Both the position numbers and the translations under genes were made by a program. The notes below the pieces were generated by a model. That model searched no databases and was not told where the DNA came from. It saw only the letters and a program-made list of their open reading frames with translations. A stretch of 64,000 nt of DNA from Globisporangium splendens (Eukaryota; Oomycota; Peronosporomycetes; Pythiales; Pythiaceae), in contig VFIW01000010.1 in NCBI GenBank assembly GCA_006386115.1, positions 806,001-870,000 on the forward strand, written 5' to 3'. Shown here in pieces: positions 28,740 to 52,812 of the stretch (position 1 is the first letter of the stretch; each line of letters starts with the position of its first letter).

Positions 28740-29390
28740 TGTAATGGGCTATACCTAGCCATTACATGAAGGTGGATCTGTTCACAGATCTAGTGTGCCA
28801 CACACCACCTTCAGTGTGCATTGTGGAGAGACAATTAACAAACGGATTACGGTACGACAGTCCCCACATGCACATGTGACGTCATCCCATGACGTCACGA
28901 GCGCTCTCTGTGCTGATCAGTGCACAATGTTGTTCACATGTACTAATCAGTACAGAGTGATGGCATCCATGTACTAATCAAGTACTGAGTGATGGTTCCT
29001 ACTTGGGAAACTGCACTGGTGATGAGACCGACGTGTGTCTGCCACCTAAAGTGAGTGGCTGTAGCCAATCACTTTGCAGTGAATTTTCCACGGGACTTCA
29101 AGTTCAAGCTTCTCGAAGATCTCGTGGGTTCAACCTCAGTGTACCCAAGGTTTTATATACCAGATTCATAGGTTTTATTGTGTATGTTTAGGTTTTAGTT
29201 ATAAAACCTCTAGGAGCCCTTGGGGTTCATTTACAAGTAGCGACAGGAACCATAACCTTTTCAATTCAGTTGCAAATTTTTTCTCAAGCCCTCAAGTCGT
29301 TCTTCTCTCCCTCCAAGTCGGGATTGCTTCCTCGTCGCACAAGCGTGTGTGCCGTGTTTTGGGGACTGTTTGGAACAGCGCCCCATTACA
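28740..29390 (+). repeat. 5' LTR of element A
   Basis: 651 bp, TG...CA ends. It begins with a near-perfect inverted repeat, TGTAATGG ... CCATTACA (28740-28766), and ends CGCCCCATTACA. It carries two perfect TGACGTCA sites, a block of related GTACTAATCA/GATCAGT motifs (28910-28990) and a TATA-like TTTTATATACC near 29150. It is very similar to the two LTRs of element B. Confidence 0.9.
28877..28897. promoter_or_regulatory. Pair of TGACGTCA (CRE-type) palindromes in the LTR
   Basis: Two perfect 8-bp TGACGTCA palindromes 13 bp apart, the classic site for bZIP factors of the CREB/ATF class. The pair is present in both LTRs of B (39342-39362 and 46316-46336). The 3' LTR of A keeps one (35833-35840) and has TGACGCCA for the second. 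Conservation in three LTRs favours a role in LTR transcription. Confidence 0.5.
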
Positions 29391-29392
29391 CC

Positions 29393-29410
29393 TGGTAGCA
29401 CTTCGAGCGG
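29393..29410 (+). promoter_or_regulatory. Primer-binding site of element A
   Basis: TGGTAGCACTTCGAGCGG starts two bases after the 5' LTR, where a tRNA 3' CCA end would pair. The first eight bases match what an initiator-Met tRNA end would give; the rest does not match a tRNA I know. Element B has the same sequence, and C has a similar one starting CGG. Confidence 0.55.
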
Positions 29411-29494
29411 TCCTTCCAGCGACCAAGCCAAGAAAGGTTTGACGAAGCGGCTTTGAGCACTTCGCGCATTCCTGTCCAAGACCTACTTCCGTCT

Positions 29495-30550
29495 ATGTCT
29501 GAGAACATGGAAGGAGTAGATGTGCCACTCGGTCCAGCAGTACCGGAAACTGTCGAGTTGACGAATGAGTATTTTCCTCATTTGTCTCCTTATGAGTGGT
29601 CGGCGCTGGAGCGGATGCGAAACGTCATCGGGGAGGCTGCTGTAATCAGCCTGCTACGATCGGCGTCTCCTGAAGACCAGAAGAACGCTGCGGTCAGTTT
29701 CATGCACCACGAGATTATTGAATCTCGAAAGCAGGTCGCAACCCCTGTTTCGTCCTTCAGGACGGTGCCGCTGAAGCTGGATGTGTCTCCGTATCGTGGC
29801 GGAGAGAACGAGCCTCTTTCGAGATGGTTCGTCGAGTTGGATGCAGCCACCACTGCAAGACAACTTCGTGACCCAATGCAGCAAGTGTTGTTCGCGATGT
29901 CCAACCTTGCGGGTCGTGCAAAGAGCTGGGCTTATGGGAAGCGTTTGTCGGATCCAAACTGCTTCTACAGCTACGAAGACTTCAAGGCGGAGCTCAAGGC
30001 AGCGTTTGAACCACCGCAGAGTGAGTTCCGTGCGCGTGCCGAGTTCCTCAAGCTTCGCCAAGGCCGTTTCGATCTGCATTCGTATGCACAACGAGCGCGC
30101 TTCTTGGTCTCAAGCATCGTGGACGAGCCGATTGACGTTCCAACGCAAGTTGTGACGTTCATGACGGGTCTGAACGACGGGCCAATCCGGAACCAATTGT
30201 TCCGTGAGTATCCCAAGACGCTGGACGAAGCCATCAGCCGTGCGATGCAAGAAGAGTTCAGCATCAAGCAAGCCAAGTTCCAAGGGTTTCCGTCAAGGCC
30301 ACCAAGACAAGCGAATGTCGCGCACGATGGCCCAGAGCCGATGGACATCTCGTACATTTCCACGCCTGGAAATGGACGTCCTCACAACGATGTAAAATGT
30401 TTCCGTTGTGGGAAGTCGGGTCACTTCGCTCGGAACTGCAAAGTGTCTTTGCCTGACCGGCAAACGACACAGGGTTTGCGCTCGAACAACTACGGTCGCG
30501 GCCGTGGGTTCGATCGTTCCCAACGTTCAAAAAACGGGAACGACCAGTAG
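29495..30550 (+). CDS. gag: Gag polyprotein of element A
   Basis: 351 residues from the first ATG (MSENMEGVDVPLG). The frame is open upstream to 29453, but only non-ATG starts occur there. A retrotransposon Gag domain is recognisable (LSRWFVELDAA, MSNLAGRAKSWAYG, FEPPQSEFRARAEFLKLRQG). Near the C-terminus is one CCHC zinc knuckle, CFRCGKSGHFARNC, followed by a basic tail. Gag forms the virus-like particle and packages RNA. The last codons contain the slippery heptamer and the stop lies inside the downstream stem. Confidence 0.93.
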   Translation: MSENMEGVDVPLGPAVPETVELTNEYFPHLSPYEWSALERMRNVIGEAAVISLLRSASPEDQKNAAVSFMHHEIIESRKQVATPVSSFRTVPLKLDVSPYRGGENEPLSRWFVELDAATTARQLRDPMQQVLFAMSNLAGRAKSWAYGKRLSDPNCFYSYEDFKAELKAAFEPPQSEFRARAEFLKLRQGRFDLHSYAQRARFLVSSIVDEPIDVPTQVVTFMTGLNDGPIRNQLFREYPKTLDEAISRAMQEEFSIKQAKFQGFPSRPPRQANVAHDGPEPMDISYISTPGNGRPHNDVKCFRCGKSGHFARNCKVSLPDRQTTQGLRSNNYGRGRGFDRSQRSKNGNDQ

Positions 30551-30569
30551 GGGCGGGGCCTCCTACTGG
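30529..30569 (+). promoter_or_regulatory. Programmed -1 frameshift signal between gag and pol (element A)
   Basis: Slippery heptamer A AAA AAC at 30529-30535, in the correct register (gag codons TCA AAA AAC). An 8-nt spacer follows, then a perfect 8-bp stem, CCAGTAGG (30544-30551) with CCTACTGG (30562-30569). The loop can add three GC pairs (GGC with GCC). The gag TAG is inside the 5' arm. pol lies in the -1 frame and is open back through the heptamer. Confidence 0.8.
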
Positions 30570-33500
30570 GCTCGAAAAGAGGACTGTGTTTGTGGATACA
30601 CAGGACTCTGGCCCCAATGTGCATGATGCGCATGCAGTTTCCACGAGGGAGAACAGTGTCAGTCAAACGTCAAGTTTGATCGTTCTCAAAGTTCAAGTAG
30701 ACGGTATTGCAACGCCTCTACGAGCTTTGGTTGACACTGGTGCGTCGAACAATTTTGTTCGAAATGAAGTGATCGTCAGGCATGGTGTCTTCGTGCCTGA
30801 TGCGAATGAAGACAAGACGATGATTATCCGGTTGGCCAACTGGTCGACTGTGAAGATGCCAAAGCGCGTGGTGCGCTTGGCAATCAAGTGTGAAGATTTC
30901 CGAGGTGAAGACGAGTTCATTTTACTCGACCTCGATGACAAGTTTGATCTGATTCTGGGAATGCCGTGGTTGAAGCGTTATCAACCTAGCATTGACTGGA
31001 TGAAGATGAAGATCTCCGTTGACAAGTCACGTGATGTTGACTTGTGCTGCACAACAACGGACGAAGTGGTGTGGGTGTACACATCTGTGGAAGAGATCCC
31101 GGATGACCCTCGTGATATTGCGGTGTGCGATGGCCCCCCATGTTCACGAGCGGTACCCATCTTGAAGAAGACTACTGGAGGTGGAGCAGTCAGGCGCCAA
31201 CAAAAGACTGTCTCCTTTGCCATCGACCCCATGGGTGAGGCGATGTGCGTGGAAGAAACGAATGGGAAAAGAGCCGAAGAGCCATCCCGAGAGAAGAAGA
31301 AGAAGACCAGCAAGAAGAGTGTCCCGTGTGCCCCTGATGAAGGTACATGTTACGGTGACGAAGGAAGTGTCCAAGCACAAGACATTTCAAGCGAGTTTGC
31401 GAATATCGCGGTCTACAATGAAGATGGTGACAGCAACGTAATGCGTCACATTGAAGTCGAAAATCCTCCAAGCTCAGTCGAAGAGTTGATTTCCTTGCCA
31501 TGGATGAGCAAGAAGACGCTGAAGCGTAGCCTAGCGAAAGGCGAAATTTCGCAGGTCTGCATGATCGTCGATGTTGACGACGCAGAAGACATCAACACGG
31601 TATCAGCAACGGAGGCTGAAGTGTTCGATGAGAAGACACGGAAGGAAAGGTTCGAGGAGCAGTCATGGGACGGTCTCAAAACGAACCCCGTGTATGAACT
31701 TGTCAAGGAATATGAGGACATATTCCCAGACAAGGTGCCGGACGAACTGCCATTCGATAGAGGCATTCGTCATGAGATTGACATACTTCCTGGCACGAAG
31801 TATTGTATCACACGGCAGTGGCCGTTGCCAAGAGAACAAGTCGTTGCGATCGACGAGTTCTTTGCGCAACGTGCTAAGGCTGGGCATGTGCGAGAGAGCA
31901 AGTCTCCACATTGCAGCCCAACCTTCTGTGTGAAGAAGGCAACTGGTGGTTGGCGCATCGTTCACGCTTTCAACAGGCTGAACGACGCTACCATTCCAGC
32001 CCAAACTCCGGTTCCACGCAAGGATATGATCCTTGATGGAATGGTTGGCAGTACTGTCTTTAGTGCTATCGATCTGAAAGATGGGTTCTATCAGATTCGA
32101 ATGCGCGAAGATGATGTACCACTGACCGCAGTGAGTACCTCGAGTGGTATGCTGTGGGAATGGATGGTGATGCCACAGGGTTTGAGGAATGCTCCTGCAA
32201 CCTTCAATCGAATGGTCACGAACGTTCTTCGTCCTTTGCGAACATTTGCACCGAGTTACTTTGACGATATTTTCGTTCATAGTAAGTCCGCGAATGGGAA
32301 ATCTGATGTCGATGTTCATCTAGATCATCTTCGTCAAGTCTTCCAGGTCGTGCGTGAAAACAAACTCTACGCAAACTTGAAGAAGTGCATGTTCTTCGCC
32401 CCCGAGATCCCTGTTCTCGGTTGTTTTGTGGGCAAGAGCGGTGTTCGAGCCGATCCGGAGAAGGTCAAAGCTATTGACGATTGGCCTGTGCCTCAGAATG
32501 TCAAACAGCTGAGACAATGGTTGGGTTTGGCCAATTACTTGCACAAGTACACGCGCAATTATGCAGCGTTGGTGCAACCCCTCACACGGCTCTTGAAGAA
32601 AGACGTTGAGTGGAAGTGGTCGAGAGACCATGAGACGGCGTTCGAAGAAGTCAAGAGGAGTCTTCGAGAAGCTCCTGTGTTGGCTCTGCCAAACCACGAC
32701 AAGCCGTTCCACGTCGTCTGTGATGCGAGCGACTATGCCATCGGTTGCACATTGATGCAACACGATGATGAGGGTCATGAGCGAGTTGTGTCGTATCAGT
32801 CACGACAACTCCGACCCGCAGAACGGAACTACCCAGTTCATGACAAAGAACTTCTGGCGATGAAGTATTCTTTGGTCAAGTTCCGTGTGTATCTGCTTGG
32901 AGAGGAGCGCTTTGCGATCTACACAGATCATGCGTCGCTGCGTACAGCGGTAAAGACTCCTCACTTGTCGCAAAGAATGGCGAGATGGTTCTCCTTCTTT
33001 GCAGAGTACAACTTTGTTGTACACTACAAGCCAGGCAAGACGAACATCTTAGCCGATGCGCTTTCAAGACGTCCGGATTACGATCCGAAGACCAAGAGTG
33101 AAGACACGGACGGAGCGTGTCGACTCTGTGAAGATGTTCAAGCGATCGCAGTGCAAGCTACGACTACAGTGCGAGAAGACATTGTCGAAGGGTACAAGTC
33201 TGACGAAACATGTCAGGACTTGTTGAAGTATTTCAAGGACCCTTCGGACAGAGCACTGCAAGGTCTTCCGTCACGCACAAGGTCGCGAGTTCACCGCTTC
33301 CGAGTACACAATGGGTTGTTGTACTACGCGGTTGAACAAGGGGATACAGCAAGGGTTGTTGTTCCCAACGACGAAGGTCTGCGTCATCGACTCTTGTATG
33401 AGTACCATGACAGTCCTTCGGGTGGCCACCTCGGACGTGAGAAAACGTTTCTCAGTCTTTCCCGGGATTACTACTGGCCACACATGTACAAGTGGGTGCG

Positions 33501-35301
33501 CAAGTATGTGAGGACTTGCGAGATCTGCCAACGAGCGAAACCTTCTGGTTCAACGCAGGCACCACTTCGTTCATTGGCTGTCCCATCGGACAGTTGGAAG
33601 TCTGTGAGTATGGATTTCATATTCGGACTTCCAAGAGACAAACACGGACGCAATGGCATCCTTGTGTTTGTGGACCGATTCAGCAAGATGGTCCATCTTG
33701 CGCCTGTTTCGGACAAGGTCTCAGCCGAAATGACGGCCAAGGTCTTTGTAGACGTCGTATTCCGTCTGCATGGCCTGCCCGTTGAGATCGTGTCTGACCG
33801 TGACACTCGGTTTACGTCCAAGTTCTGGCGTGCACTGTTCGGACTTCTGGACACCAAGTTGGCCATGTCAACAGCGGCACATCCTGAAACGGACGGTCAA
33901 ACAGAGCGAGTGAATCGTGTCCTTGAAGACGTGTTGCGAAGCTACGCAACGTCTTTCAAAGAGTGGAGTGAGTTTCTCCCTCTCGCAGAGTTTGCGTTGA
34001 ACAACTCCACGCATGTCTCGACGGGTCACTCTCCATTTTATGTGAACTATGGCATTCATCCTCGAGTGCCTGCTTCCATAATGGGTGAGGTCTCTACCTT
34101 AAGTGGGGGAGGGACTACGGCTAAAGGCAATAAGCCGCAGTCGTCTTATGACCTGAATGCTGTTGCCGAGTTGAAAGCAAATTTTGACTCGATGAAACCC
34201 CTCAACGACATCACTAGTCGTGAGGAACAGCAAGTCGATGACTTTGTTGTGAGGAGACAAGCCGTTGTGAGGTTTGTTCGAGACGCAATCGCGAAGGCTC
34301 AGGATCTGCAAAAGGAACAAGCAGACAAGAGCGGAAGGAAGAACAAGCAAGTGTATAAGATCAATGATCTTGTATTGCTTAGCACGGCGAACCTGCCTGA
34401 ACATGCAGTGTCCAACTTGGGAAGCTCGAAGCTTCTGCCAAGGTTCATTGGACCGTTCAAGGTAGTGAAATGCAATGGTGATGCCTATACGCTAGACATA
34501 CCTACACGCATGCGTCTACACCCGACATTTTATGTGGGTAGACTAAAGCCTTACCTTCCAAGCGGATCAGCGGATCCTACGAGATCTTCCGCAAACGATC
34601 AAGCTGATCTTGAAGCTTCTCCACTTGATTGCGAAGAGCAAACAGCTCGTCGCTCTGGAGATTCTTCTCGGCGTACAAGAGTTGCAGGACGTCGAAGGAT
34701 TGGTCCTTCACCGACTCCAGCGCTTGAAGACGAGAATGGTACTCACCACGAAGTACCTCAAAAGCCGAACCTGCCTCTTCCACAGAGTGCAGAAGACGTT
34801 CGTGATACGCATCACGAGCTTTCTCAGCCTTCTGGAGTCGTTCAAGCTCGGCTTGAATCTTCCCGAACCTCTGTTCGAAATGTGACTCCATTGCCGAACG
34901 CTGGGCAAGACCATCGAAGAGCAAGTCGATCTTCGACTCCTGCTCCTTCAACCGGTCTTCGAGGCTTTCGCACCGGTCTTCGAGTACCGCGTTGCGAACT
35001 TCAAGAGCCTCGATCTGAGCGCGGTGAGCACTCTTCCACTTCCAGAGTCGCACAATCGTTTTCGCGTTCAGCCCCACCTCCTCTGATCGATCATCAGGGA
35101 GAGCGTCGTTGGATCGTTGAGTCGATAGTCGATCACGAGGATCGATCGACTCGTCGTCGAGGAGAGAAGTCGTTGAACCGTCAACGCTTCTACAGAGTAC
35201 GGTGGCTTGGCTATCCGCCGGACTCGGACACGTGGGAACCTCGAGAGACTCTTCAGTCTGATGTTCCCGACGTGGTTCGCAGCTACGAACAGAACTTGTA
35301 G
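30535..35301 (+). CDS. pol: Pol polyprotein of element A (PR-RT-RH-IN-chromodomain)
   Basis: About 1,588 residues from the frameshift point. Aspartic protease near residue 75 (RALVDTGASNNFV; ILGMPWLKRYQ). RT: KSPHCSPTFCVKKATGGWR, DLKDGFYQIRM, VMPQGLRNAPATFNR and catalytic SYFDDIFVHS. RNase H: HVVCDASDYAIGC, AERNYPVHDKELLAM, YTDHASLR. Integrase: HHCC finger (HDSPSGGHLGREK, RTCEICQRAK), core aspartates in SMDFIFG and VSDRDTRF, glutamate in RVNRVLEDVLRS. Then a GPY/F-like module (LLPRFIGPFKV, HPTFYVGRLKPYL), a Ser/Arg/Pro-rich linker and a C-terminal chromodomain (RWIVESIVDHED, FYRVRWLGYPPDSDTWEPRE). No stop or frameshift. The last 725 nt overlap the antisense ORF. Confidence 0.95.
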   Translation, partial: RERPVGAGPPTGLEKRTVFVDTQDSGPNVHDAHAVSTRENSVSQTSSLIVLKVQVDGIATPLRALVDTGASNNFVRNEVIVRHGVFVPDANEDKTMIIRLANWSTVKMPKRVVRLAIKCEDFRGEDEFILLDLDDKFDLILGMPWLKRYQPSIDWMKMKISVDKSRDVDLCCTTTDEVVWVYTSVEEIPDDPRDIAVCDGPPCSRAVPILKKTTGGGAVRRQQKTVSFAIDPMGEAMCVEETNGKRAEEPSREKKKKTSKKSVPCAPDEGTCYGDEGSVQAQDISSEFANIAVYNEDGDSNVMRHIEVENPPSSVEELISLPWMSKKTLKRSLAKGEISQVCMIVDVDDAEDINTVSATEAEVFDEKTRKERFEEQSWDGLKTNPVYELVKEYEDIFPDKVPDELPFDRGIRHEIDILPGTKYCITRQWPLPREQVVAIDEFFAQRAKAGHVRESKSPHCSPTFCVKKATGGWRIVHAFNRLNDATIPAQTPVPRKDMILDGMVGSTVFSAIDLKDGFYQIRMREDDVPLTAVSTSSGMLWEWMVMPQGLRNAPATFNRMVTNVLRPLRTFAPSYFDDIFVHSKSANGKSDVDVHLDHLRQVFQVVRENKLYANLKKCMFFAPEIPVLGCFVGKSGVRADPEKVKAIDDWPVPQNVKQLRQWLGLANYLHKYTRNYAALVQPLTRLLKKDVEWKWSRDHETAFEEVKRSLREAPVLALPNHDKPFHVVCDASDYAIGCTLMQHDDEGHERVVSYQSRQLRPAERNYPVHDKELLAMKYSLVKFRVYLLGEERFAIYTDHASLRTAVKTPHLSQRMARWFSFFAEYNFVVHYKPGKTNILADALSRRPDYDPKTKSEDTDGACRLCEDVQAIAVQATTTVREDIVEGYKSDETCQDLLKYFKDPSDRALQGLPSRTRSRVHRFRVHNGLLYYAVEQGDTARVVVPNDEGLRHRLLYEYHDSPSGGHLGREKTFLSLSRDYYWPHMYKWVRKYVRTCEICQRAKPSGSTQAPLRSLAVPSDSWKSVSMDFIFGLPRDKHGRNGILVFVDRFSKMVHLAPVSDKVSAEMTAKVFVDVVFRLHGLPVEIVSDRDTRFTSKFWRALFGLLDTKLAMSTAAHPETDGQTERVNRVLEDVLRSYATSFKEWSEFLPLAEFALNNSTHVSTGHSPFYVNYGIHPRVPASIMGEVSTLSGGGTTAKGNKPQSSYDLNAVAELKANFDSMKPLNDITSREEQQVDDFVVRRQAVVRFVRDAIAKAQDLQKEQADKSGRKNKQVYKINDLVLLSTANLPEHAVSNLGSSKLLPRFIGPFKVVKCNGDAYTLDIPTRMRLHPTFYVGRLKPYLPSGSADPTRSSANDQADLEASPLDCEEQTARRSGDSSRRTRVAGRRRIGPSPTPALEDENGTHHEVPQKPNLPLPQSAEDVRDTHHELSQPSGVVQARLESSRTSVRNVTPLPNAGQDHRRASRSSTPAPSTGLRGFRTGLRVPRCELQEPRSERGEHSSTSRVAQSFSRSAPPPLIDHQGERRWIVESIVDHEDRSTRRRGEKSLNRQRFYRVRWLGYPPDSDTWEPRETLQSDVPDVVRSYEQNL

Positions 35302-35626
35302 TGCTCTCGCGAGCACTAGAACGACGAGAGCCAAGCTCTTTATGGTCGTTCTCGAGCGTGCCTCCTAGGTTCCCTAGCAAACGCTCGACAAGATTCTCGT
35401 TCTCGAGTCGGACAAACGTCTTCCACGACTCGAGCTTCGCTGTGCTGGACTGGCCAGGATCGTCGCTGCCGGACATCTTGCGCCAGAGGAAGAACAACTC
35501 CTTGTAGAACCGACGCCCTCCACGCTTCTTGCGAATAGCGGAGATGTCGTACAAGCCGGGAGTCATCCGCTGCCGCTTTGGCTCGGGCCGTTCTTCGCGC
35601 TTCACTTGGTCGCTTGATCGCTTCAT
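34577..35626 (-). CDS. Antisense coiled-coil ORF of element A
   Basis: 349 residues, starting MKRSSDQVKREERPEPKRQR 77 bp inside the 3' LTR and reading toward the 5' end of the element. The first 325 nt lie outside pol; the other 725 nt are antisense to the pol linker and chromodomain. The N-terminus is basic and NLS-like, followed by FYKELFFLWRKM and TFVRLENENLVERLL, then an acidic Ser-rich middle. From residue about 200 there is a long coiled coil ending in heptads (LFALRNQVEKLQDQLDRL). Element B has a homologue with the same overlap length. The frame stays open further upstream into the LTR, so the true start may be earlier. The function is unknown; it has no canonical bZIP basic region. 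Confidence 0.7.
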   Translation of the reverse strand: MKRSSDQVKREERPEPKRQRMTPGLYDISAIRKKRGGRRFYKELFFLWRKMSGSDDPGQSSTAKLESWKTFVRLENENLVERLLGNLGGTLENDHKELGSRRSSARESTTSSVRSCEPRREHQTEESLEVPTCPSPADSQATVLCRSVDGSTTSLLDDESIDPRDRLSTQRSNDALPDDRSEEVGLNAKTIVRLWKWKSAHRAQIEALEVRNAVLEDRCESLEDRLKEQESKIDLLFDGLAQRSAMESHFEQRFGKIQAELERLQKAEKARDAYHERLLHSVEEAGSAFEVLRGEYHSRLQALESVKDQSFDVLQLLYAEKNLQSDELFALRNQVEKLQDQLDRLRKIS

Positions 35627-35689
35627 GGTCAATTGGAAAGTAAGAGCGGGTACCTCTTCCGAAAGAAGTAAAGTCCGTGATGGAACTTT

Positions 35690-35702
35690 AAGGGAGGGAT
35701 GA
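35690..35702 (+). promoter_or_regulatory. Polypurine tract of element A
   Basis: AAGGGAGGGATGA directly abuts the 3' LTR; it is the expected primer site for plus-strand DNA. B has AAGGAGGGGATGA in the same place. Confidence 0.75.
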
Positions 35703-36312
35703 TGTAATGGGCTAAGGCTGCCATTACATGCAAGATGGCTCCTTGTGTGTGTCACACACCACCTTGTGGAAGTGCATTGTGGGTGCGAAGATATTGGGTG
35801 AAGCACATAAAAGTGATCCCCACATGCACAGGTGACGTCATCGTCTGACGCCAGAGCAATCTGTGTCTGAGTTGAGTGTTGGTCGCTCGCAATCATTGAG
35901 ATTCGGCGTGATTACGCACAACAGTACTCTAGACACGTGAGTGATGGTTCCTACTTGGTAAACTGCACTGGTGATGAGACCGACGTGTCTCTGCCACCTA
36001 AAGTGAGTGGCTGTAGCCAATCACTTTGCAGGGAATTTTCCACCGGACTTCAAGTTCAAGTTTCTCGAAGATCCCCTGGGTTCAACCTCAGTGTACCCAA
36101 GGTTTTATATATCAGGTTCATAGGTTTTATTGTGCATGTTTAGGTTTTAGTTATAAAACCTCTAGGAATCCCTAGTGGTGTTTTACATGTAGTGTCAGGA
36201 ACCATAAGCTCATTTCAATTCAGTTGCAATTTTGATAATTTCCTCTCAAGCCTTCCTCTTCAAGCGCAAGCGTGCGTGCCGTGTTTGAGGTTGTCTCGGA
36301 TAGCCACTTACA
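35703..36312 (+). repeat. 3' LTR of element A, diverged from its 5' LTR
   Basis: 610 bp, TGTAATGGGC ... CCACTTACA. It shares the general plan with the 5' LTR (CRE-type site, CTACTTGG ... CTGCCACC block, TATA-like TTTTATATATC) but differs by many substitutions and length changes from the first 15 bp on. It also lacks the GTACTAATCA repeat block. LTRs of one insertion start identical, so this pair was not made by one simple insertion. Confidence 0.85.
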
Positions 36313-36355
36313 CTCTCCCCACAAAAATATAGCTCGCCAAACCTCGGACGAAGCC

Positions 36356-36903
36356 TGTAACTGGACACTTCCGAGTCACGCAGCACGGTACGTGTGTGAG
36401 GAAGCGTGTGCACGACTTCTCTCAAGGACTCTGTTCCAAGAGCTGTTGCCTGCTTCCTGCAGTGCAACGATCGGTTACCTATAGATCTCTATAGAGTAAC
36501 CGTCAATAACTAAAGGCTTAGCCAGAGGTAAAAAATGGAACTGTTTATTTGTTGGGGGTTGCCCTCTGCAGGACACCCTGAGTTATCTTTAGTTCACTAT
36601 CTAGCAGAGTGAACTTCCGCTTATTTCAATGTGGACATAAGTGAATGGCTCTGAATTGCCGTGTTATTCAATTGGTCTAAAAGCATAGAGTTTTAGCCTA
36701 TGAGAGTCGTGTCTGTGACCGACCTCTAATCAGAGTAGCTTGGCTACCTTTGTGGTTCTAGTAAGTGCGGCGAACCGAATGAATCGGCTGCTTTGGTGTT
36801 TCTCGTAGCTAAGTACGGAAACTTTAGTTGCATGCGGATTAGTCCAACGTGAACAGATTGAGCTAAGTTGCTGCGGTGCAACTTAGCGTGTGACCCCATT
36901 ACA
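36356..36903 (-). repeat. 3' LTR of element C (left copy)
   Basis: On the plus strand TGTAACTGGACAC ... GACCCCATTACA. It differs from the right copy by a small number of substitutions (for example TGTAACTG against TGTAACCG, and a few changes near 36770-36810). Confidence 0.9.
36472..36502. repeat. 31-nt hairpin palindrome in the LTR of element C
   Basis: CGGTTAC ... GTAACCG arms (7 bp), one mismatch, then TATAGA with TCTATA (6 bp) around a 2-nt loop. The same palindrome is in the right LTR at 51958-51988. A role such as RNA folding or a protein site is possible but not shown. Confidence 0.6.
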
Positions 36904-36916
36904 CCACCCCCCACCT
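36904..36916 (-). promoter_or_regulatory. Polypurine tract of element C
   Basis: On the minus strand AGGTGGGGGGTGG, immediately before the 3' LTR. Confidence 0.7.
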
Positions 36917-37085
36917 AAAGTGCGAAACACGGGAGTGGTTTCGAAAGAGTGGTGGCCACGCTGCGACACACGAAGTCGTGGTCAGAATTCTTCGGGAGAG
37001 GCACTGCGAACACGCGTGCAAATCTCTCCGAACAGCATCGCAACATCACAAGTGTGAACTCACACGTGATGGCGACGAACAATCA

Positions 37086-38598
37086 ATGCGCGAAAAGATC
37101 ACCCGAAGCGTGAGCGGTCCTGCAGAAGGACTCGTCCAAAGACTGCAGAAGCTCGACGCTGAGAAGCGCGAGGCGGCAAGCGCAAAACAACGCGCTGCCG
37201 CTGCGGTCACGTCTGCCACGGAAGACGTGAGCATGAGCGACGACGAGTCGGCTCAATTGAAGACTGCTCCTGACGGTGTCAGTGAGCTGCAGTTTGGCGA
37301 TCTCCCTGTCATCAAGCCGATGAGCAGGGCAAGCGACGCCGATGACGACACGGCAGTCGACTACCAAGAGTACTCACCCGAGGAAGGGGAGGAAGGCATC
37401 ACCGTGAGGCGCGACTCCATCGACGAGTGGGTCGAGTATGAGGAGCTGCGTTATGGGAGCGGTAGCCCCGAACTGCACGAGTTGGAACGAAATCCCTCGG
37501 CAGACGTCTCGATTTATCGGACAAAGGAAGAGAATGACGTCGCAAAGACTGTCAATGAAAGGGAGAAGAGGGAGGTCATCATTACCAACAATGAGACCGG
37601 ACTGAAACCACCACCAAAAGGTTCCGTCCATTTTTCGCTTCCCATAATGCCGCCGCCAAAGGAATGGCCGACAGCGAAAACCCCGGCAAATTTACTTGCA
37701 CGGGCGCAGGTTCCACTCGAGAGGTATGACTCCGAGTTCGCACGATGGCGCGAAGCCGATCTGCGAGGACGTGATGGGGCACTGCGCGTGCACCCGATCC
37801 CGGTTATCCTTTACGAAGGTGAGACCGAGGATCAATATGAAACCGCGTTCTTGGCATCAAGAACCGGTGTGAAACGCTTTGGGGCTGCGCGTACATTGGC
37901 CACCGATCCTGGGGCACAACGTAGCCAGCGCATGCAATTTGCTGTGCAGCGCGTACAAAAGTACCGCGAAGCAACAAAGAGTGATGACCGTGCTCGCACG
38001 AGTCTCGGTATTAACAAGCGACAGATGGACGAGTCTCACTCGCCATCAACGCACGCTCAAAAGCGGCGACCATGTCGGGAACGTCCTCGAGGAGGCGCTC
38101 AGCAGGCTCCCATGTGCTCTGCGACAAATCGTATCCACGCCACTTCACAAGGTAGTGGGTGTTCCCCTTGCGCCGCTGCACACGCAGCAGACGCTCGACA
38201 TGGTAGTGGCGCTGTCCCTGCTTATCAATCAGCGGGACCGGTGGCACCCTACCGCGCTTCAGCATCGGTGGTTGCACCAGATGCGATGGTTCAGATGGTT
38301 CACGCGAACGCATCGTCTTTGGGGGGCGCTACAGCAAGACGTCCGTGCCCTTCGCCAGCAATATCTGGACGAGACCTCGCTGTTAAAGCAGAGGGTGACG
38401 GCGCTTGAGACGGAGCTGAGGGAAGCTCGTCAGATGCTGGAGGAGTACCATGTCCGCGGGAAGAACTTCCACGCGAGGTACGCTCCGCGAGTGAAGACGC
38501 TTTGGGAGAGGCACAACGCGCTCGTGTCTCGATGGGCGGCGTCTGAGCCCCCTGATGAGACCGACGTGCTCCCGCACTGGGATAAGAATCCGCAGTAG
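37086..38598 (+). CDS. Antisense ORF of element C with C-terminal coiled coil (one-base frame break)
   Basis: It begins 182 bp inside the 3' LTR (MREKITRSVSGPAEG; first ATG in the frame) and reads against pol. About 500 codons if the frame change at the G6 run (38315-38320) is treated as one extra base. The N-terminal half is highly charged (SMSDDESAQLK, YQEYSPEEGEEG, DEWVEYEELRYGSG). A middle part has YDSEFARWREADLRG and QRMQFAVQRVQKYRE. The end is a coiled coil (QQDVRALRQQYLDE, LKQRVTALETELREARQML). It overlaps the pol end (38011-38598) and stops just after the pol motif HPVFYVGLLKRY, the same landmark as in A and B. No clear sequence similarity to the A/B protein except the architecture. 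Function unknown. Confidence 0.6.
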
Positions 38599-38844
38599 CG
38601 TCATGGTAGCGTTTCAGCAAACCCACGTAGAACACGGGGTGCGTTGCCATTCGCGTTGGGAGATCGAGCTTGTAATTCAAGTCTCCAATCTTCTCCACAA
38701 CAGTGTACGGCCCGATAAATCGTGGCAACAACTTACTCCCGCTGGGGAGCGTTGTGACTGCATCGTTTGGTAGGTTTTTAATGCTCAATAGCACTTTATC
38801 ACCCACACAAAACGTTTGTTTGTTCTTTCTACCCGATTTATCGG
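38011..38844 (-). pseudogene. 3' end of pol of element C: GPY/F-like module, linker, chromodomain
   Basis: It continues the integrase C-terminus interrupted by B (KSGRKNKQTFCVGDKVLLS, LLPRFIGPYTVV, HPVFYVGLLKRYHD). A Ser/Pro/Arg-rich linker follows, then a chromodomain (HYHVERLLRVQ, THYLVKWRGYDLSQSTWEP, DVPDMVAAFERAL). The frame changes at a run of six C on this strand (38315-38320); the sequence carries one base too many there. The stop is at 38011. The 588 nt before it are antisense to the coiled-coil ORF. Confidence 0.85.
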
Positions 38845-39499
38845 TGTAATGGGGCGCTGTTCCAAACAGTCCCCAAAACACGGCACACACGCTTGTGCGA
38901 CTTGAGGAAGCGATCTCCCGACTTGGAGGGAGAGAAGACGACTTGAGTACTTGAGGGTAAAATTGCAACTGAATTAAAATGCTTATGGTTCCTGTCGCTA
39001 CTTGTAAATGAACCCCAAGGGCTCCTAGAGGTTTTATAACTAAAACCTAAACATACACAATAAAAACCTATGAATCTGATATATAAAACCTTGGGTACAC
39101 TGAGGTTGAACCCACGAGATCTTCGAGAAGCTTGAACTTGAAGTCCCGTGGAAAATTCCCTGCAAAGTGATTGGCTACAGCCACTCACTTTAGGTGGCAG
39201 AGACACGTCGGTCTCATCACCAGTGCAGTTTCCCAAGTAGGAACCATCACTCAGTACTTGATTAGTACATGGATGTCATCACTCTGTACTGATTAGTACA
39301 TGTGAACAACATTCTGCACTGATCAGCACAGAGAGCGCTCGTGACGTCATGGGATGACGTCACATGTGCATGTGGGGACTGTCGTACTGTAATCCCTTTG
39401 TTATTTGTCTCTCCACAATGCACACTGAAGGTGGTGTGTTCGGCACACTAGATCTGGGAACAGCCACCTTCATGTAATGGCTAGGTATAGCCCATTACA
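38845..39499 (-). repeat. 3' LTR of element B (left copy)
   Basis: 655 bp; on the minus strand TGTAATGGGC ... GCCCCATTACA with the paired TGACGTCA sites and the terminal inverted repeat. Confidence 0.92.
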
Positions 39500-39512
39500 T
39501 CATCCCCTCCTT
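39500..39512 (-). promoter_or_regulatory. Polypurine tract of element B
   Basis: On the minus strand AAGGAGGGGATGA, abutting the 3' LTR. Confidence 0.75.
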
Positions 39513-39575
39513 AAAGCCAAAAGTACCTTGCGTACTTTTGCAGACCTTTCGGAGCAGTTCACTTTCCAATCGGCC

Positions 39576-40646
39576 ATGAAGCGACCAAGCGACCAAGTGA
39601 ACCAAGGTGAAGAACGTCCGTTGTCCAAGCGACAGCAGACAGCTCCAGAACTCTTCGACATATCTCCCATTCTGAAGAAGAAGGGGGATCTCGAGTTCTA
39701 CAAGGAGCGGTTCTTCAGTTGGCGTCGGATCAACGATCGCGATGATCCGAACCAACACATCGCAGCCCAGAGAGACTCATGGCGAACATTCGTTCGTCTT
39801 GAGAACGAGAACAAGATGGAGCGTCTTCTTCGCCGTGGCAATGCTCGTGCCCAAAGAAGAACTCCTGCTGACGACAGAGCGAATCCCAGCTCTGGTCGTC
39901 GTAGTGTCGCCCCTGGCGACGCTACAAGCGGTTCTCGTAGCTGCGGACCACGTCGGGAACATCAGACTCCATCGTCTGCCGTGGTTCCCACGTGTCCGAG
40001 CTCGGTGGATATCCACGCCACCGAACTCTGTAGAAGCGTTGATGGTTCAACCGCTTCTTTCCTCGACGATGAGTCGGTCGATCTTCGTGATCAACAATCG
40101 ACTCAACCACCCAGCGATGCTCTCCCTGAGAGTCTAACAACGGGGGTGGGGCTGAACGAGAAAACGATTGAGCGACTCTGGAAGTGGAAGAGTGCTCATC
40201 GTGGGCAAATCGAGGCTTTGCAGCAGCGTTGTTCGACACTTGAGGAACGCTGCGAGAGTCTCGAGAACCTTGTCGCCGATCATGAGTCAAAGATCGATGT
40301 CCCGACAGAAGGTTGTGCCCAGTGTTCGGCTTTGGAGTCCCGTTTCGAGGAACGGTTCCAGCAAGTTCAGGGCGAACTTGTCCGACTCCAGAAGAACGAG
40401 AAGTCTCGTGAGTTGGCTCACGATCGCCTTTTGCGCTCTGTGGAAGAGGCAGGTTCGGCTTTTGAGGTACTTCGTGGTGAGTACCATTCTCGTCTTCAAG
40501 CGCTGGAGTCGGTGAAGGACCAATCCTTCGACGTCCTGCAACTCTTGTACGCCGAGAAGAATCTCCAGAGCGACGAGCTGTTTGCTCTTCGCAATCAAGT
40601 GGAGAAGCTTCAAGATCAGCTTGATCGTTTGCGGAAGATCTCGTAG
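39576..40646 (+). CDS. Antisense coiled-coil ORF of element B
   Basis: 356 residues from MKRPSDQVNQGEERPLSKRQ, beginning 77 bp inside the 3' LTR exactly as in A, and overlapping pol by the same 725 nt. Identity to the A protein is about 60% over the first 85 residues, which are not covered by pol, with several synonymous codon changes (DIS: ATC TCC against ATA TCT). It is about 66% from VGLN to GSAF, and the last 67 residues are identical. The same blocks are kept: FYKERFFSWRR, TFVRLENENKMERLL, LCRSVDGST, RLWKWKSAHRGQIEAL and the terminal leucine heptads. An in-frame ATG inside the LTR (39477) could also serve as start. Function unknown. Confidence 0.72.
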   Translation: MKRPSDQVNQGEERPLSKRQQTAPELFDISPILKKKGDLEFYKERFFSWRRINDRDDPNQHIAAQRDSWRTFVRLENENKMERLLRRGNARAQRRTPADDRANPSSGRRSVAPGDATSGSRSCGPRREHQTPSSAVVPTCPSSVDIHATELCRSVDGSTASFLDDESVDLRDQQSTQPPSDALPESLTTGVGLNEKTIERLWKWKSAHRGQIEALQQRCSTLEERCESLENLVADHESKIDVPTEGCAQCSALESRFEERFQQVQGELVRLQKNEKSRELAHDRLLRSVEEAGSAFEVLRGEYHSRLQALESVKDQSFDVLQLLYAEKNLQSDELFALRNQVEKLQDQLDRLRKIS

Positions 40647-43600
40647 GATCCGCTGATCCGCTTGGAAGGTAAGGCTTTAGTCTACCCACATAAAATGTCG
40701 GGTGTAGACGCATGCGTGTAGGTATGTCTAGCGTATAGGCATCACCATTGCATTTCACTACCTTGAACGGTCCAATGAACCTTGGCAGAAGCTTCGAGCT
40801 TCCCAAGTTGGACACTGCATGTTCAGGCAGGTTCGCCGTGCTAAGCAATACAAGATCATTGATCTTATAAACTTGCTTGTTCTTCCTTCCGCTCTTGTCT
40901 GCTTGTTCCTTTTGCAGATCCTGAGCCTTCGCGATTGCGTCTCGAACAAACCTCACAACGGCTTGTCTCCTCACAACAAAGTCATCGACTTGCTGTTCCT
41001 CACGACTTGTGATGTCGTTGAGGGGTTTCATCGAGTCAAAGTTGGCTTTTAACTCGGCAACAGCATTCAGGTCATACGACGACTGCGGCTTATTGCCTTT
41101 AGCCGTAGTCCCTCCCCCACTTAAGGTAGAGACCTCACCCATTATGGAAGCAGGCACTCGAGGATGAATGCCATAGTTCACATAAAATGGAGAGTGACCT
41201 GTCGAGACATGCGTGGAGTTGTTCAACGCAAACTCGGCAAGAGGGAGAAACTCACTCCACTCTTTGAAAGACGTTGCGTAGCTGCGCAACACGTCTTCAA
41301 GGACACGATTCACTCGCTCTGTTTGACCGTCCGTTTCAGGATGTGCCGCTGTTGACATGGACAACTTGGTGTCCAGAAGTCCAAACAGTGCACGCCAGAA
41401 CTTGGACGTAAACCGAGTGTCACGGTCAGACACGATCTCAACGGGCAGGCCATGCAGACGGAATACGACGTCTACAAAGACCTTGGCCGTCATTTCGGCT
41501 GAGATCTTGTCCGAAACCGGCGCAAGATGGACCATCTTGCTGAATCGGTCCACAAACACAAGGATGCCATTGCGTCCGTGTTTGTCACGCGGAAGTCCGA
41601 ATATGAAATCCATACTCACAGACTTCCAACTGTCTGATGGGACAGCCAATGAACGAAGTGGTGCCTGAGTGGAACCAGAAGGTTTCACTCGTTGGCAGAT
41701 CTCGCAAGTCCTCACATACTTGCGAACCCACTTGTACATGTGTGGCCAGTAGTAATCCCGGGAAAGACTGAGAAACGTTTTCTCACGTCCGAGATGGCCA
41801 CCCGAAGGACTGTCATGGTACTCATACAAGAGTCGATGACGCAGACCTTCGTCGTTGGGAACAACAACCCTTGCTGTATCCCCGTCTTCAACCGCATAGT
41901 ACAACAATCCATTGTGTACTCGGAAGCGGTGAACTCGCGACCTTGTGCGCGACGGAAGACCTTGCAGTGCTTTGTCCGAAGGGTCCTTGAAATACTTCAA
42001 CAAGTCCTGACATGTTTCGTCAGACTTGTACCCTTCGATAATGTCTTCTCGCACTGTAGTCGTTGCTTGCACCACGATCGCTTGAACATCTTCACAGAGT
42101 CGACACGCTCCGTCCGTGTCTTCACTCTTGGTCTTCGGATCGTAATCCGGACGTCTTGACAGCGCATCGGCTAAGATGTTCGTCTTGCCTGGCTTGTAGT
42201 GTACAACAAAGTTGTACTCTGCAAAGAAGGAGAACCATCTCGCCATTCTTTGCGACAAATGAGGAGTCTTTACTGCTGTACGCAGCGACGCATGATCTGT
42301 GTAGATCGCAAAGCGCTCCTCGCCAAGCAGATACACACGGAACTTGACCAAAGAATACTTCATCGCCAGAAGTTCTTTGTCATGAACTGGGTAGTTCCGT
42401 TCTGCGGGTCGGAGTTGTCGTGACTGATACGACACAACTCGCTCATGACCCTCATCATCGTGTTGCATCAACGCGCAACCGATGGCATAGTCGCTTGCAT
42501 CGCAAACCACATGAAAAGGCTTGTCGTGGTTTGCGATTGCCAGCACGGGAGCTTCTCGCAGACTCCTCTTGACTTCGGCAAATGCCATTTGGTGGTCACT
42601 GGACCACTCCCACTCAATGTCCTTCTTCAGGAGCTGTGTGAGGGGTTGCACCAACGCTGCATAATTGCGCGTGTACTTGTGCAAGTAGTTGGCCAGACCC
42701 AACCATTGTCTCAGCTGTTTGACATTCTGAGGCACAGGCCAATCGTCAATAGCTTTGACCTTCTCCGGATCAACTCGAACACCATGCTTTCCCACAAAGC
42801 AACCGAGAACGGGGATCTCTGGTGCAAAGAATATGCACTTCTTCAGGTTAGCGTAGAGCTTGTTCTCTCGCATGACCTGAAAGACTTGACGGAGGTGGTC
42901 AAGATGAACATCAACGTCAGACTTTTCACCCGTGGTTTTACTATGAACGAATATATCGTCAAAGTAACTCGGTGCAAACCCTCTCAATGGACGAAGTAAA
43001 TTCGTGACCATCCTATTGAAAGTCGCAGGAGCGTTCTTCAAACCCTGTGGCATCACTAACCATTCCCACAGCATACCACTCGGGGTACTCACTGCAGTTA
43101 GTGGTACATCATCTTCGCGCATTCGAATCTGATAGAACCCATCTTTCAGATCGATAGCACTGAAGACAGTACTGCCAACCATTCCATCAAGGATCATATC
43201 CTTGCGTGGAACCGGAGTTTGGGCTGGAATGGTAGCGTCGTTCAGCTTGTTGAAAGCGTGAACGATGCGCCAACCACCAGTTGCCTTCTTCACACAGAAG
43301 GTTGGGCTACAATGTGGAGACTTGCTCTCTCGCACATGCCCAGCCTTAGCGCGTTGCGCAAAGAACTCGTCGATCGCAACGACTTGTTCTCTTGGCAACG
43401 GCCACTGCCGTGTGATGCAGTACTTCGTGCCAGGAAGTATGTCAATCTCATGACGAACGCCTCTATCGAATGGCAGTTCGTCCGGCACCTTGTCAGGGAA
43501 TATGTCCTCATATTCCTTGACAAGTTCATACACGGGGTTCGTTTTGAGAGCGTCCCACGACTGCTCATCAAACCTTTCCTTCCGTGTCTTCTCATCGAAC

Positions 43601-44658
43601 ACTTCCGCAGTGTTGATGACATCGTCGGCAACTTCATCGACGATCATGCAGACCTGCGAAATTTCGCCTTTCGCTAGGCTACGCTTCAGCGTCTTCTTGC
43701 TCATCCACGGCAAGGAAACCAAATCTTCAACAGAGCTTGGAGGATTTTCAATCTTCACGTGACGGATTACATCCACGTCACCATCTTCATTGTAGACCGC
43801 GATATTCGCAAACTCGCTTGAAATGTCTTGTGCTTGGACACTTCCTTCGTCACCGTAACTTGTACCTTGATCAGGGGCACACGGGACACTCTTCTTGCTG
43901 GTCTTCTTCTTCTTCTCTCGGGATGGCTCTTCGGCTCTTTTCCCATTCGTTTCTTCCACGCACATCGCCTCGCTCTTAGGGTCGATGGCAAAGGAGACAG
44001 TCTTTTTCTGGCGCCTGACTGCTCCACCTCCAGTAGTCTTCTTCAAGATGGGTACCGCTCGTGAACATGGGGGGCCATCGCACACCGCAATATCACGAGG
44101 GCCATCCGGGATCTCTTCCACAGATGTGTAAACCCACACCACTTCATCCGTTGTTGTGCAGCACAAGTCAACATCACGTGACTTGTCAACGGAGATCTTC
44201 ATCTTCATCCAGTCAATGCTAGGTTGATAACGCTTCAACCACGGCATGCCCAGGATGATGTCAAACTTGTCATCGAGGTCGAGTAGAATAAACTCGTCTT
44301 CACCTCGGAAATCTTCACACTTCATTGCCAAGCGCACCACGCGCTTCGGCATCTTCACAGTCGACCCGTTGGCCAACCGTATAACCATCGTCTTCTCTTC
44401 GTTCGCATCAGGCACGAAGACACCATGCCTGACGATCACTTCATTTCGAACAAAATTGTTCGATGCACCAGTGTCAACCAAAGCACGCAGAGGTGTTGCA
44501 ATACCGTCTACATGAACTTTGAGAACGATCAAACTTGACGTTTGACTGACACTGTTCTCCCTCGTGGAAACTGCATGTGCATCATGCACATTGGGGCCAG
44601 AGTCCTGTGTATCCACAAACCACAGTCCTCTTTTCGAGCCCAGTAGGAGGCCCCGCCC
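39922..44658 (-). CDS. pol: Pol polyprotein of element B
   Basis: About 1,578 codons after the gag stop, with the same domains as A: LVDTGASNNFV protease, SYFDDIFVHS in RT, RNase H, HHCC and DDE integrase, FIGPFKV/HPTFYVG module, chromodomain (FYRVRWRGYPPSSDTWEPR). No internal stop. Unlike A, there is one extra G near 44623 (GACTGTGG against GACTGTG). This puts pol in the same frame as gag, behind the gag TAG, so the -1 frameshift would lead to a premature stop. Either B is defective for Gag-Pol or it depends on TAG readthrough. Confidence 0.9.
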   Translation of the reverse strand, partial: GRGLLLGSKRGLWFVDTQDSGPNVHDAHAVSTRENSVSQTSSLIVLKVHVDGIATPLRALVDTGASNNFVRNEVIVRHGVFVPDANEEKTMVIRLANGSTVKMPKRVVRLAMKCEDFRGEDEFILLDLDDKFDIILGMPWLKRYQPSIDWMKMKISVDKSRDVDLCCTTTDEVVWVYTSVEEIPDGPRDIAVCDGPPCSRAVPILKKTTGGGAVRRQKKTVSFAIDPKSEAMCVEETNGKRAEEPSREKKKKTSKKSVPCAPDQGTSYGDEGSVQAQDISSEFANIAVYNEDGDVDVIRHVKIENPPSSVEDLVSLPWMSKKTLKRSLAKGEISQVCMIVDEVADDVINTAEVFDEKTRKERFDEQSWDALKTNPVYELVKEYEDIFPDKVPDELPFDRGVRHEIDILPGTKYCITRQWPLPREQVVAIDEFFAQRAKAGHVRESKSPHCSPTFCVKKATGGWRIVHAFNKLNDATIPAQTPVPRKDMILDGMVGSTVFSAIDLKDGFYQIRMREDDVPLTAVSTPSGMLWEWLVMPQGLKNAPATFNRMVTNLLRPLRGFAPSYFDDIFVHSKTTGEKSDVDVHLDHLRQVFQVMRENKLYANLKKCIFFAPEIPVLGCFVGKHGVRVDPEKVKAIDDWPVPQNVKQLRQWLGLANYLHKYTRNYAALVQPLTQLLKKDIEWEWSSDHQMAFAEVKRSLREAPVLAIANHDKPFHVVCDASDYAIGCALMQHDDEGHERVVSYQSRQLRPAERNYPVHDKELLAMKYSLVKFRVYLLGEERFAIYTDHASLRTAVKTPHLSQRMARWFSFFAEYNFVVHYKPGKTNILADALSRRPDYDPKTKSEDTDGACRLCEDVQAIVVQATTTVREDIIEGYKSDETCQDLLKYFKDPSDKALQGLPSRTRSRVHRFRVHNGLLYYAVEDGDTARVVVPNDEGLRHRLLYEYHDSPSGGHLGREKTFLSLSRDYYWPHMYKWVRKYVRTCEICQRVKPSGSTQAPLRSLAVPSDSWKSVSMDFIFGLPRDKHGRNGILVFVDRFSKMVHLAPVSDKISAEMTAKVFVDVVFRLHGLPVEIVSDRDTRFTSKFWRALFGLLDTKLSMSTAAHPETDGQTERVNRVLEDVLRSYATSFKEWSEFLPLAEFALNNSTHVSTGHSPFYVNYGIHPRVPASIMGEVSTLSGGGTTAKGNKPQSSYDLNAVAELKANFDSMKPLNDITSREEQQVDDFVVRRQAVVRFVRDAIAKAQDLQKEQADKSGRKNKQVYKINDLVLLSTANLPEHAVSNLGSSKLLPRFIGPFKVVKCNGDAYTLDIPTRMRLHPTFYVGRLKPYLPSGSADPTRSSANDQADLEASPLDCEEQTARRSGDSSRRTRVAGRRRIGPSPTPALEDENGTHHEVPQKPNLPLPQSAKGDREPTHETSRSSGVGQVRPELAGTVPRNGTPKPNTGHNLLSGHRSLTHDRRQGSRDSRSVPQVSNNAAAKPRFAHDEHSSTSRVAQSFSRSAPPPLLDSQGEHRWVVESIVDHEDRPTHRRGKKRLNHQRFYRVRWRGYPPSSDTWEPRQTMESDVPDVVRSYENRL

Positions 44659-44680
44659 CTACTGGTCGTTCCCGTTTTTT
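44640..44680 (-). promoter_or_regulatory. gag-pol -1 frameshift signal of element B
   Basis: Same heptamer A AAA AAC (44674-44680), 8-nt spacer and 8-bp stem (44658-44665 with 44640-44647) as in A. The downstream single-base insertion means that slipping no longer enters pol. Confidence 0.7.
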
Positions 44681-45714
44681 GAACGTTGGGAACGATCGAA
44701 CCCACGGCCGCGACCGTAGTTGTTCGAGCGCGAACCCTGTGTCGTTTGCCGGTCAGGCAAGGACACTTTGCAGTTCCGAGCGAAGTGACCCGACTTCCCA
44801 CAACGGAAACATTTTCCATCGTTGCGAGGACGTTCATTTCCAGGCGTGGAAATGTACGAGATGTCCATCGGCTCTGGGCCATCGTGCGCGACATTTGATT
44901 GCCGCATAGGTCTCGACGCAAACCCTTGGAACTTGGCTTGCTTGATGCTGAACTCTTCTTGCATCGCACGGCTGATGGCTTCGTCCAGCGTCTTGGGATA
45001 CTCACGGAACAATTGGTTCCGGATTGGCCCGTCGTTCAGACCCGTCATGAACGTCACAACTTGCGTTGGAACGTCAATCGGCTCGTCCACGATGCTTGAG
45101 ACCAGGAAGCGCGCTCGTTGTGCATACGAATGCAGATCGAAACGGCCTTGGCGAAGCTTGAGGAACTCGGCACGCGCACGGAACTCGCTCTGCGGTGGTT
45201 CAAACGCTGCCTTGAGCTCCGCCTTGAAGTCTTCGTAGCTGTAGAAGCAGTTTGGATCCGACAAACGCTTCCCATAAGCCCAGCTCTTTGCACGACCCGC
45301 AAGGTTGGACATCGCGAACAACACTCGCTGCATTGGGTCTCGAAGTTGTCTTGCAGTGATGGCTGCATCCAACTCGACGAACCATCTCGAAAGAGGTTCG
45401 TTCTCTCCGCCACGATACGGAGAGACATCCAGCTTCAGCGGCACCGTCCTGAAGGACGAAACAGGGGTTGCGACCTGCTTTCGAGATTCAATAATCTCGT
45501 GGTGCATGAAACTGACCGCGGCGTTCTTCTGGTCTTCAGGAGACGCCGATCGTAGCAGGCTGATTACAGCAGCCTCCCCGATGACGTTTCGCATCCGCTC
45601 CAGCGCCGACCACTCATAAGAAGACAAATGAGGAAAATACTCATTCGTCAACTCGACAGTTTCCGGTACTGCTGGACCGAGTGGCACATCTACTCCTTCC
45701 ATGTTCTCAGACAT
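44659..45714 (-). CDS. gag: Gag polyprotein of element B
   Basis: 351 residues from MSENMEGVDVPLG, differing from A at about a dozen positions (for example QQVL/QRVL, FPSRPP/FASRPM). The Gag domain and one CCHC knuckle (CFRCGKSGHFARNC) are intact. Confidence 0.93.
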   Translation of the reverse strand: MSENMEGVDVPLGPAVPETVELTNEYFPHLSSYEWSALERMRNVIGEAAVISLLRSASPEDQKNAAVSFMHHEIIESRKQVATPVSSFRTVPLKLDVSPYRGGENEPLSRWFVELDAAITARQLRDPMQRVLFAMSNLAGRAKSWAYGKRLSDPNCFYSYEDFKAELKAAFEPPQSEFRARAEFLKLRQGRFDLHSYAQRARFLVSSIVDEPIDVPTQVVTFMTGLNDGPIRNQLFREYPKTLDEAISRAMQEEFSIKQAKFQGFASRPMRQSNVAHDGPEPMDISYISTPGNERPRNDGKCFRCGKSGHFARNCKVSLPDRQTTQGSRSNNYGRGRGFDRSQRSKNGNDQ

Positions 45715-45798
45715 AGACAGAAGTAGGTCTTGGACAGGAATGCGCGAAGTGCTCAAAGCCGCTTCGTCAAACCTTTCTTGGCTTGGTCGCTGGAAGGA

Positions 45799-52500: not shown

Positions 52501-52812
52501 TGTTGTGAAGACGCCTCGATCTGCTACTGCCTGATACCGGTATCTACCGGTGATACCGACCTCCACTCATGGCATCGCAGTCATTCCAGTGTTTACGCTA
52601 TTATGTTTACAACAGGTAAGACATGATTGTGGGTGCAGGATCTGATCGCACCCACCAGCTGTTTATGTGTAACGTTCCTAGTGGATAGTACAGACAAGAA
52701 TCCAGTAGGAATCCAGTAGGCTTAGATGCAGCATGTGTGCATGTGAACTAAGGACCTCATTCAATCAACCACTTTGCATTTTGCATCCAACCACTCAAGC
52801 AGCTTTCCAACA
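52501..52812 (+). repeat. Probable 5' LTR of copia element E
   Basis: 312 bp with TGTTG ... CAACA inverted ends, directly followed by the primer-binding site. The left limit is set only by the terminal motif, because the other LTR is not in the window. The 112 nt before it (52389-52500) hold nothing I can identify. Confidence 0.6.

Follow-up and report, generated by a model that had tools for sequence, protein, structure and literature searches.

The 64,000-nucleotide stretch of Globisporangium splendens DNA analyzed here (G000:C12:806001-870000, hereafter the window; genome total 53.3 Mb) contains two related Ty3 retrotransposons, element A on the plus strand and element B on the minus strand, and a third Ty3 element, C, which is split in two by B. 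Elements of the A/B type, of the C type and of a further family termed F carry a long open reading frame (ORF) antisense to gag-pol at the end formed by pol and the 3′ long terminal repeat (LTR). The ORF is conserved in most copies per family, a layout that corresponds to the antisense ORFs called aORF-3R in the broad sense of that term. Its frame runs stop-free for 108-378 codons past pol under purifying selection, with ratios of nonsynonymous to synonymous substitution (dN/dS) of ~0.2-0.4 in three families. That the ORF is protein-coding thus appears close to certain, and a third, accessory protein is strongly supported by codon-level selection, seen both within the pol overlap and beyond it, and by its conservation in three families. 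A preliminary description of the window had proposed such a protein and had set a dN/dS near 1 outside pol as the result that would contradict it; the opposite was found.

Layout of the antisense genes and selection on the two strands

The antisense gene of element A (34577..35626, minus strand, 349 aa) starts with an ATG at 35626 and has its stop ending at 34577, while that of element B (39576..40646, plus strand, 356 aa) starts at 39576 with a stop ending at 40646. The codons outside pol cover 35302-35626 and 39576-39921, respectively. Both lengths, as well as an overlap with pol of exactly 725 nt (34577-35301 in A, 39922-40646 in B, counting both stops), had been given in the preliminary description and are confirmed by the coordinates. 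The start, previously placed 77 bp inside the 3′ LTR, is in fact separated from the LTR edge (at 35704 in A and at 39499 in B) by 76-77 bp on the inner side and thus lies between pol and the LTR. The stop lies just beyond the pol motif FYVG.LK in A, B and C, as described before, and in family F too. In element C, for which a similar ORF had been reported, the gene as such stands and the window copy does not: the latter (37069..38598, plus strand) is frameshifted twice, once close to the start and once at about 38.3 kb, its reading falling into two frames (36978-38408 and 37879-38598), whereas 23 of 34 C-type loci fetched from the genome have an intact reading from a MATN start of 494-514 aa (509-514 aa in 21 of the 23). 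The C-type gene has ~316 codons outside pol, with a predicted coiled coil opposite the pol linker, the segment between integrase and chromodomain. Three of the four loci L061-L064 (L061 at 941-1921, L063 and L064) also contain a 327-aa open frame overlapping the C2-type antisense gene on the same strand in another frame.

Family F emerged from a search with the SH3_Tf2-1 domain, which gave 150 scored matches, five of whose 3′ ends were examined (L070-L074). Two of these, L072 and the partly degraded L073, belong to family F and possess a pol with linker and chromodomain in the same layout as A/B. The antisense frame of L072 comprises 565 codons (536 aa from the ATG), overlaps pol by ~469 nt and ends shortly after FYVG.LK.Y. 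In the remaining three (L070, L071 and L074), the chromodomain directly follows the integrase with no linker, and none of them has an antisense frame of at least 110 aa over pol. Genome searches, whose copy counts are lower bounds with stop-free counts taken by hand from tables, scored at least 106 copies for the B protein (at least 84 stop-free within the match) and at least 89 for the C type (53-100% identity, at least 70 stop-free). For the A protein there were at least 116, made up of 73 A-type (73-100% identity, 57 stop-free) and 43 B-type matches (66-68%). The F protein yielded 81 scored matches, fragments counted, 57 of them without a stop. At two places, G000:C122:228559-228915 and G000:C179:14151-14507, there is a fragment similar to the F protein (residues 171-289) that starts 1195 nt ahead of an A-type antisense gene of the same strand.

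Selection was assessed by dN/dS according to the NG86 method, with A/B pairs limited to dS > 0.05. Outside pol, the antisense frame of A/B copies has a median dN/dS of 0.23 (436 of 496 pairs), and comparison of A with the copies L065 and L066 gives a dN of 0.38 at a dS of 1.27-1.67. For orientation, the main part of pol has a dN/dS of 0.15 between A and B. Family F yields 0.29-0.34 in all three pairs, and the listed pairs between the C1 and C2 subfamilies yield ~0.28-0.33. One copy without a start (L029) was dropped from the A/B set; the full-length A/B set holds 31 of 33 copies (L013 and L029 missing), and 11 of 34 C loci were left out of the full-length C set. As a control, substitutions were re-placed and all six frames compared in 11 hand-picked pairs. 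The antisense frame is the sole stop-free frame of the six in every pair, and its excess of synonymous changes reaches z 3.0-6.1 in the eight divergent pairs and 1.3-2.4 in the three close ones. The reverse frame that shares the antisense third positions has a synonymous excess too (z up to 3.5; 2.5 versus 2.4 in L066-L024), as an echo of the antisense frame would give, but it contains stops.

Within the overlap, selection is divided between the strands, most clearly in family A/B. All three families (A/B, C and F) have the first base of pol at the same antisense phase, so that antisense codon positions 1/2/3 face pol positions 1/3/2 (a pairing worked out by hand). Opposite the chromodomain, change is fastest at the third position of pol; opposite the linker, it is fastest at the third position of the antisense codons. 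In four A/B pairs, the chromodomain stretch has a dN/dS of 0.27-0.56 in the pol frame and 1.64-2.42 in the antisense frame, whereas the linker has 0.21-0.29 in the antisense frame and 1.43-1.85 in the pol frame. These pairs share sequences and are therefore not independent, and the chromodomain value of L065-L018 rests on six differences. Fisher tests of the contrast between the two segments gave 0.0008, 7.8e-5 and 0.087 for A/B, 0.019 and 0.0081 for C, and 0.038, 0.069 and 0.44 for F; one of three A/B pairs and two of three F pairs are thus not significant, the evidence from F being weak. C and F follow the same trend as A/B, less markedly. The C type says little opposite the linker because divergence between C1 and C2 is low there, which points to recombination; the comparison within C1 opposite the linker was left unused, as it includes L048 and L052, which are frameshifted at the end. 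The reading proposed is that the linker of pol is for the most part carried as a passenger by the coiled coil on the antisense strand, and that the antisense codons facing the chromodomain are carried by pol in the same way.

Structure and mosaic history of the elements

Element B has the composition of a Ty3 chromodomain element. Its gag (44659-45756, minus strand) is followed by a pol (39922..44616, minus strand) encoding protease, reverse transcriptase (RT), RNase H, integrase and chromodomain, the last at ~39925-40146 and preceded by a linker that starts at ~40147 and reaches beyond 40643. The 3′ LTR (38845..39499, minus strand) measures 655 bp with TG...CA ends. B is inserted within the pol gene of the larger element C and is flanked on each side by the 5-bp duplication ATCGG. 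One half of C, containing gag, protease, RT and integrase, is found at 46444-51770 on the minus strand, and its 3′ end occupies ~36.9-38.84 kb. The 3′ part of its pol lies in two frames (38011..38968, minus strand) with an SH3/GPY-F-like domain at 38300-38968 and a chromodomain at 38011-38313, the sequence above ~38844 being the LTR of B. In element A (28740-36233), pol (30586..35301, plus strand) has its linker at ~34555-35070 and its chromodomain at ~35071-35298, and the 3′ LTR is assigned to 35704..36233 on the plus strand, which is the extent alignable to the LTR of B.

The 5′ LTR of A is 95.6% identical to the LTR of B, and its pol matches that of B at 88-100% per 300-nt window up to ~34.7 kb and at 60-86% from there to the 3′ LTR; the two LTRs of A are 82-92% alike in matched blocks. 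Element A is therefore a chimera, with a B-type 5′ LTR and most of a B-type pol joined to an A-type 3′ end and 3′ LTR. Together with L063, in which a C1-like N-terminus is joined to a C2-like middle, this chimera indicates that antisense genes are exchanged between subfamilies.

Two further features of the window may be mentioned. On the minus strand, several large ORFs encoding IPT/TIG domains are clustered at 4740-16790, the longest of 1169 aa, and an 895-aa Copia-type gag-integrase ORF at 52733-55420 adjoins the Ty3 cluster.

Predicted protein and possible roles

For the B protein, helices are predicted at residues 195-239, 244-327 and 332-355, mostly with pLDDT values of 70-95 in a model based on a two-sequence alignment. 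The heptads previously noticed at the ends of the antisense proteins are borne out, the hydrophobic heptad pattern being stronger than in 1000 shuffles for all four types, A, B, C and F (hand-chosen segments, z 3.8-5.7). A C-terminal coiled coil is therefore likely. SMC matches of this region (E ~1e-4, far under curated cut-offs) have been read as coiled-coil similarity only, and a fold search with the A/B model gave generic coiled-coil matches while barely testing the N-terminal part. For the N-terminal domains, searches of Pfam, NCBIfam and PDB gave no convincing relative. In a profile search, residues 23-82 of B weakly matched the CDYL chromodomain 2dnt (E 0.28); this match was rejected, because it is absent with single sequences and in Pfam and the model there is a low-confidence helix. 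The single-sequence model of the C-type domain is uninformative (mean pLDDT 33). A/B and F proteins appear to have an N-terminal motif of ~64 columns in common (L[FY]D[IV]S ... EFY..F.S.R ... W..FV..NE); the hhalign score of 31 between the two is higher than that of any of 60 column shuffles run each way (which reach 21-22 at most), yet the reported probability is only 35-38%. No relatives were found in viral contigs or, with the C-type alignment only, in genome contigs, collections that hold few or no oomycetes.

Taken together, the ORF is best explained, with moderate probability, as a genuine accessory gene of the chromodomain Ty3 group that encodes a nuclear, self-associating coiled-coil regulator of the element; once coding is granted, analogy with known antisense proteins makes nuclear regulation somewhat probable. 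The antisense transcript would begin close to the inner boundary of the 3′ LTR and extend into the terminal part of pol. Its product would consist of an N-terminal domain that differs between families, a middle part under weak constraint that faces the chromodomain of pol, and a coiled coil at the C-terminus that faces the pol linker. This protein could self-associate in the nucleus and regulate the element, by acting on LTR transcription or on the handling of the integration complex, in a mode like that of HBZ from human T-cell leukemia virus type 1 (HTLV-1) or GENE23 from maize Grande, without kinship to either. A candidate start site is the initiator-like TCACTTT at 39559..39565 on the plus strand, which fits the oomycete initiator consensus YCAYTYY (PMC3599244). 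In B it starts 17 nt ahead of the antisense ATG, and it recurs at the same distance in 29 of 31 A/B copies, between LTR and ATG and hence outside the LTR. Such a 7-mer is expected by chance within 125 nt in an estimated 1 of 8 cases, and the site is a promoter hint only. A broader, tentative scenario would place these elements in a stramenopile clade of chromodomain elements whose antisense gene is ancient, fixed and laid out back-to-back over the terminal part of pol. The DNA would be divided between the strands by domain, with the pol chromodomain facing an unconstrained part of the antisense protein and the antisense coiled coil facing an unconstrained pol linker that exists only for the other strand, and the protein would regulate copy number or targeting in trans and be swapped among subfamilies by recombination.

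Several observations weigh against this explanation. The initiator-like site is absent from A itself (one mismatch), from C (0 of 23) and from F (0 of 3). The sole pointer to a nuclear location is the basic N-terminus of the A/B proteins (MKR...KR), judged by eye, which suggests a nuclear signal. The C protein has no similarity to A/B or F at the hhalign sensitivity used. Outside pol, the median antisense dN/dS of the C type is 0.39 (181 of 435 pairs) with upper values to 0.75; this set of 30 copies (L031, L032, L035 and L036 dropped) includes sequence upstream of the ATG, and its dN is raised because L033, L034, L037 and L042 are read in a shifted frame in their first part. In family F the overlap taken alone is weak evidence, its antisense dN/dS being 0.50-0.54 over the whole stretch and its frame staying open in nearly a quarter of shuffles (see below).

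Among other explanations, a structural or integration accessory is a lesser possibility: the protein might join the particle or the pre-integration complex, its coiled coil working with the integrase tail or the chromodomain and steering integration. Encoding over chromodomain and linker, absence from all three linker-less copies and the predicted coiled coil are consistent with such a role, but the product of a separate antisense mRNA falls outside the gag-pol precursor, and family searches with the antisense protein matched no gag-like or nucleic-acid-binding family. It is rather unlikely that the protein opposes repression of the element by host small RNAs or chromatin. Fast-changing, family-specific N-terminal domains exchanged between subfamilies would fit an arms race, and in Phytophthora infestans the Gypsy elements are matched by small RNAs of either strand (PMC3522703); however, dN/dS outside pol is well under 1, with no sign of diversifying selection there.

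Two explanations dispense with the protein altogether. Regulatory antisense non-coding transcripts have been described for other elements (PMC7264820), and the antisense RNA might control the element with the ORF as an incidental feature. As the sole role this is very improbable and contradicted by selection that tracks antisense codons even where pol is free to vary. Least probable is a by-product of base composition and pol sequence in young copies. Many copies are indeed young, and the overlap of family F, which taken alone could be open by chance, remains open in 23% of synonymous-codon shuffles of pol. The same shuffles leave it open in 0/2000 cases for A, 0/2000 for B and 3/2000 (0.15%) for C, however, and a by-product is contradicted by the selected codons past pol and by the linker, where the pol frame looks unconstrained and the antisense frame does not.

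Comparison with known antisense genes

Antisense ORFs in LTR elements have mostly been catalogued without proof of coding. Here, many copies in one genome reveal codon-level selection and, for each stretch of the overlap, the strand on which it acts, so that the elements offer a clear natural example, within a eukaryotic transposon, of genes that overlap in antisense. A third protein is predicted that would be missed when such elements are annotated, and it becomes testable whether counterparts of antisense regulators like HBZ exist in old retrotransposons.

The HBZ protein of HTLV-1 has a leucine zipper, and its gene is read from the side of the 3′ LTR. Together with ASP of human immunodeficiency virus type 1 (HIV-1), it represents the antisense genes of retroviruses (PMC10186651). 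In contrast to HBZ, the A, B, C and F proteins have no bZIP match in Pfam at E up to 1 and no visible basic region before the zipper. ASP overlaps env, whereas the ORF described here lies over pol and, unlike ASP, has been retained across three families that number hundreds of copies.

Chronos and other stramenopile Ty3 elements, both oomycete and brown-algal, likewise have a chromodomain after the integrase (PMC5348765; PMC12477816). Chronos differs in its second RNase H, for which the pol of B has no match at E up to 1. The word "antisense" is absent from the main text of PMC5348765 and, in the parts of PMC12477816 considered, refers to small RNAs. Listings of the open-access literature gave no report of an antisense gene in Ty3 elements of oomycetes.

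Closest in layout are the plant aORF-3R of Grande (gene23), RIRE2, Retand and PvRetro13, which are present in many copies, are of unknown function and have been proposed to play nuclear or DNA-related roles (PMC7264820; PMC11963269). As here, they are antisense to gag-pol at the end formed by pol and the 3′ LTR. The Retand protein carries a TRP28 domain (PF04195), whereas the A, B, C and F proteins have no Pfam match to it at E up to 1. By its description, brtn of Boty-type elements in the fungus Botrytis cinerea (PMC7264820; PMC8365987) is likewise an additional antisense gene in a Ty3 element. The ORFs of plant and Boty elements are described as lying between pol and the 3′ LTR, while those reported here share 469-725 nt with pol, across chromodomain and linker, with selection split by strand; the parts of PMC7264820 and PMC11963269 considered describe neither a deep pol overlap nor selection split by strand and domain for plant or Boty elements. 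Antisense accessory ORFs in LTR elements are thus already known, and the deep overlap with pol, together with selection apportioned by domain, would be the feature added by the oomycete elements.

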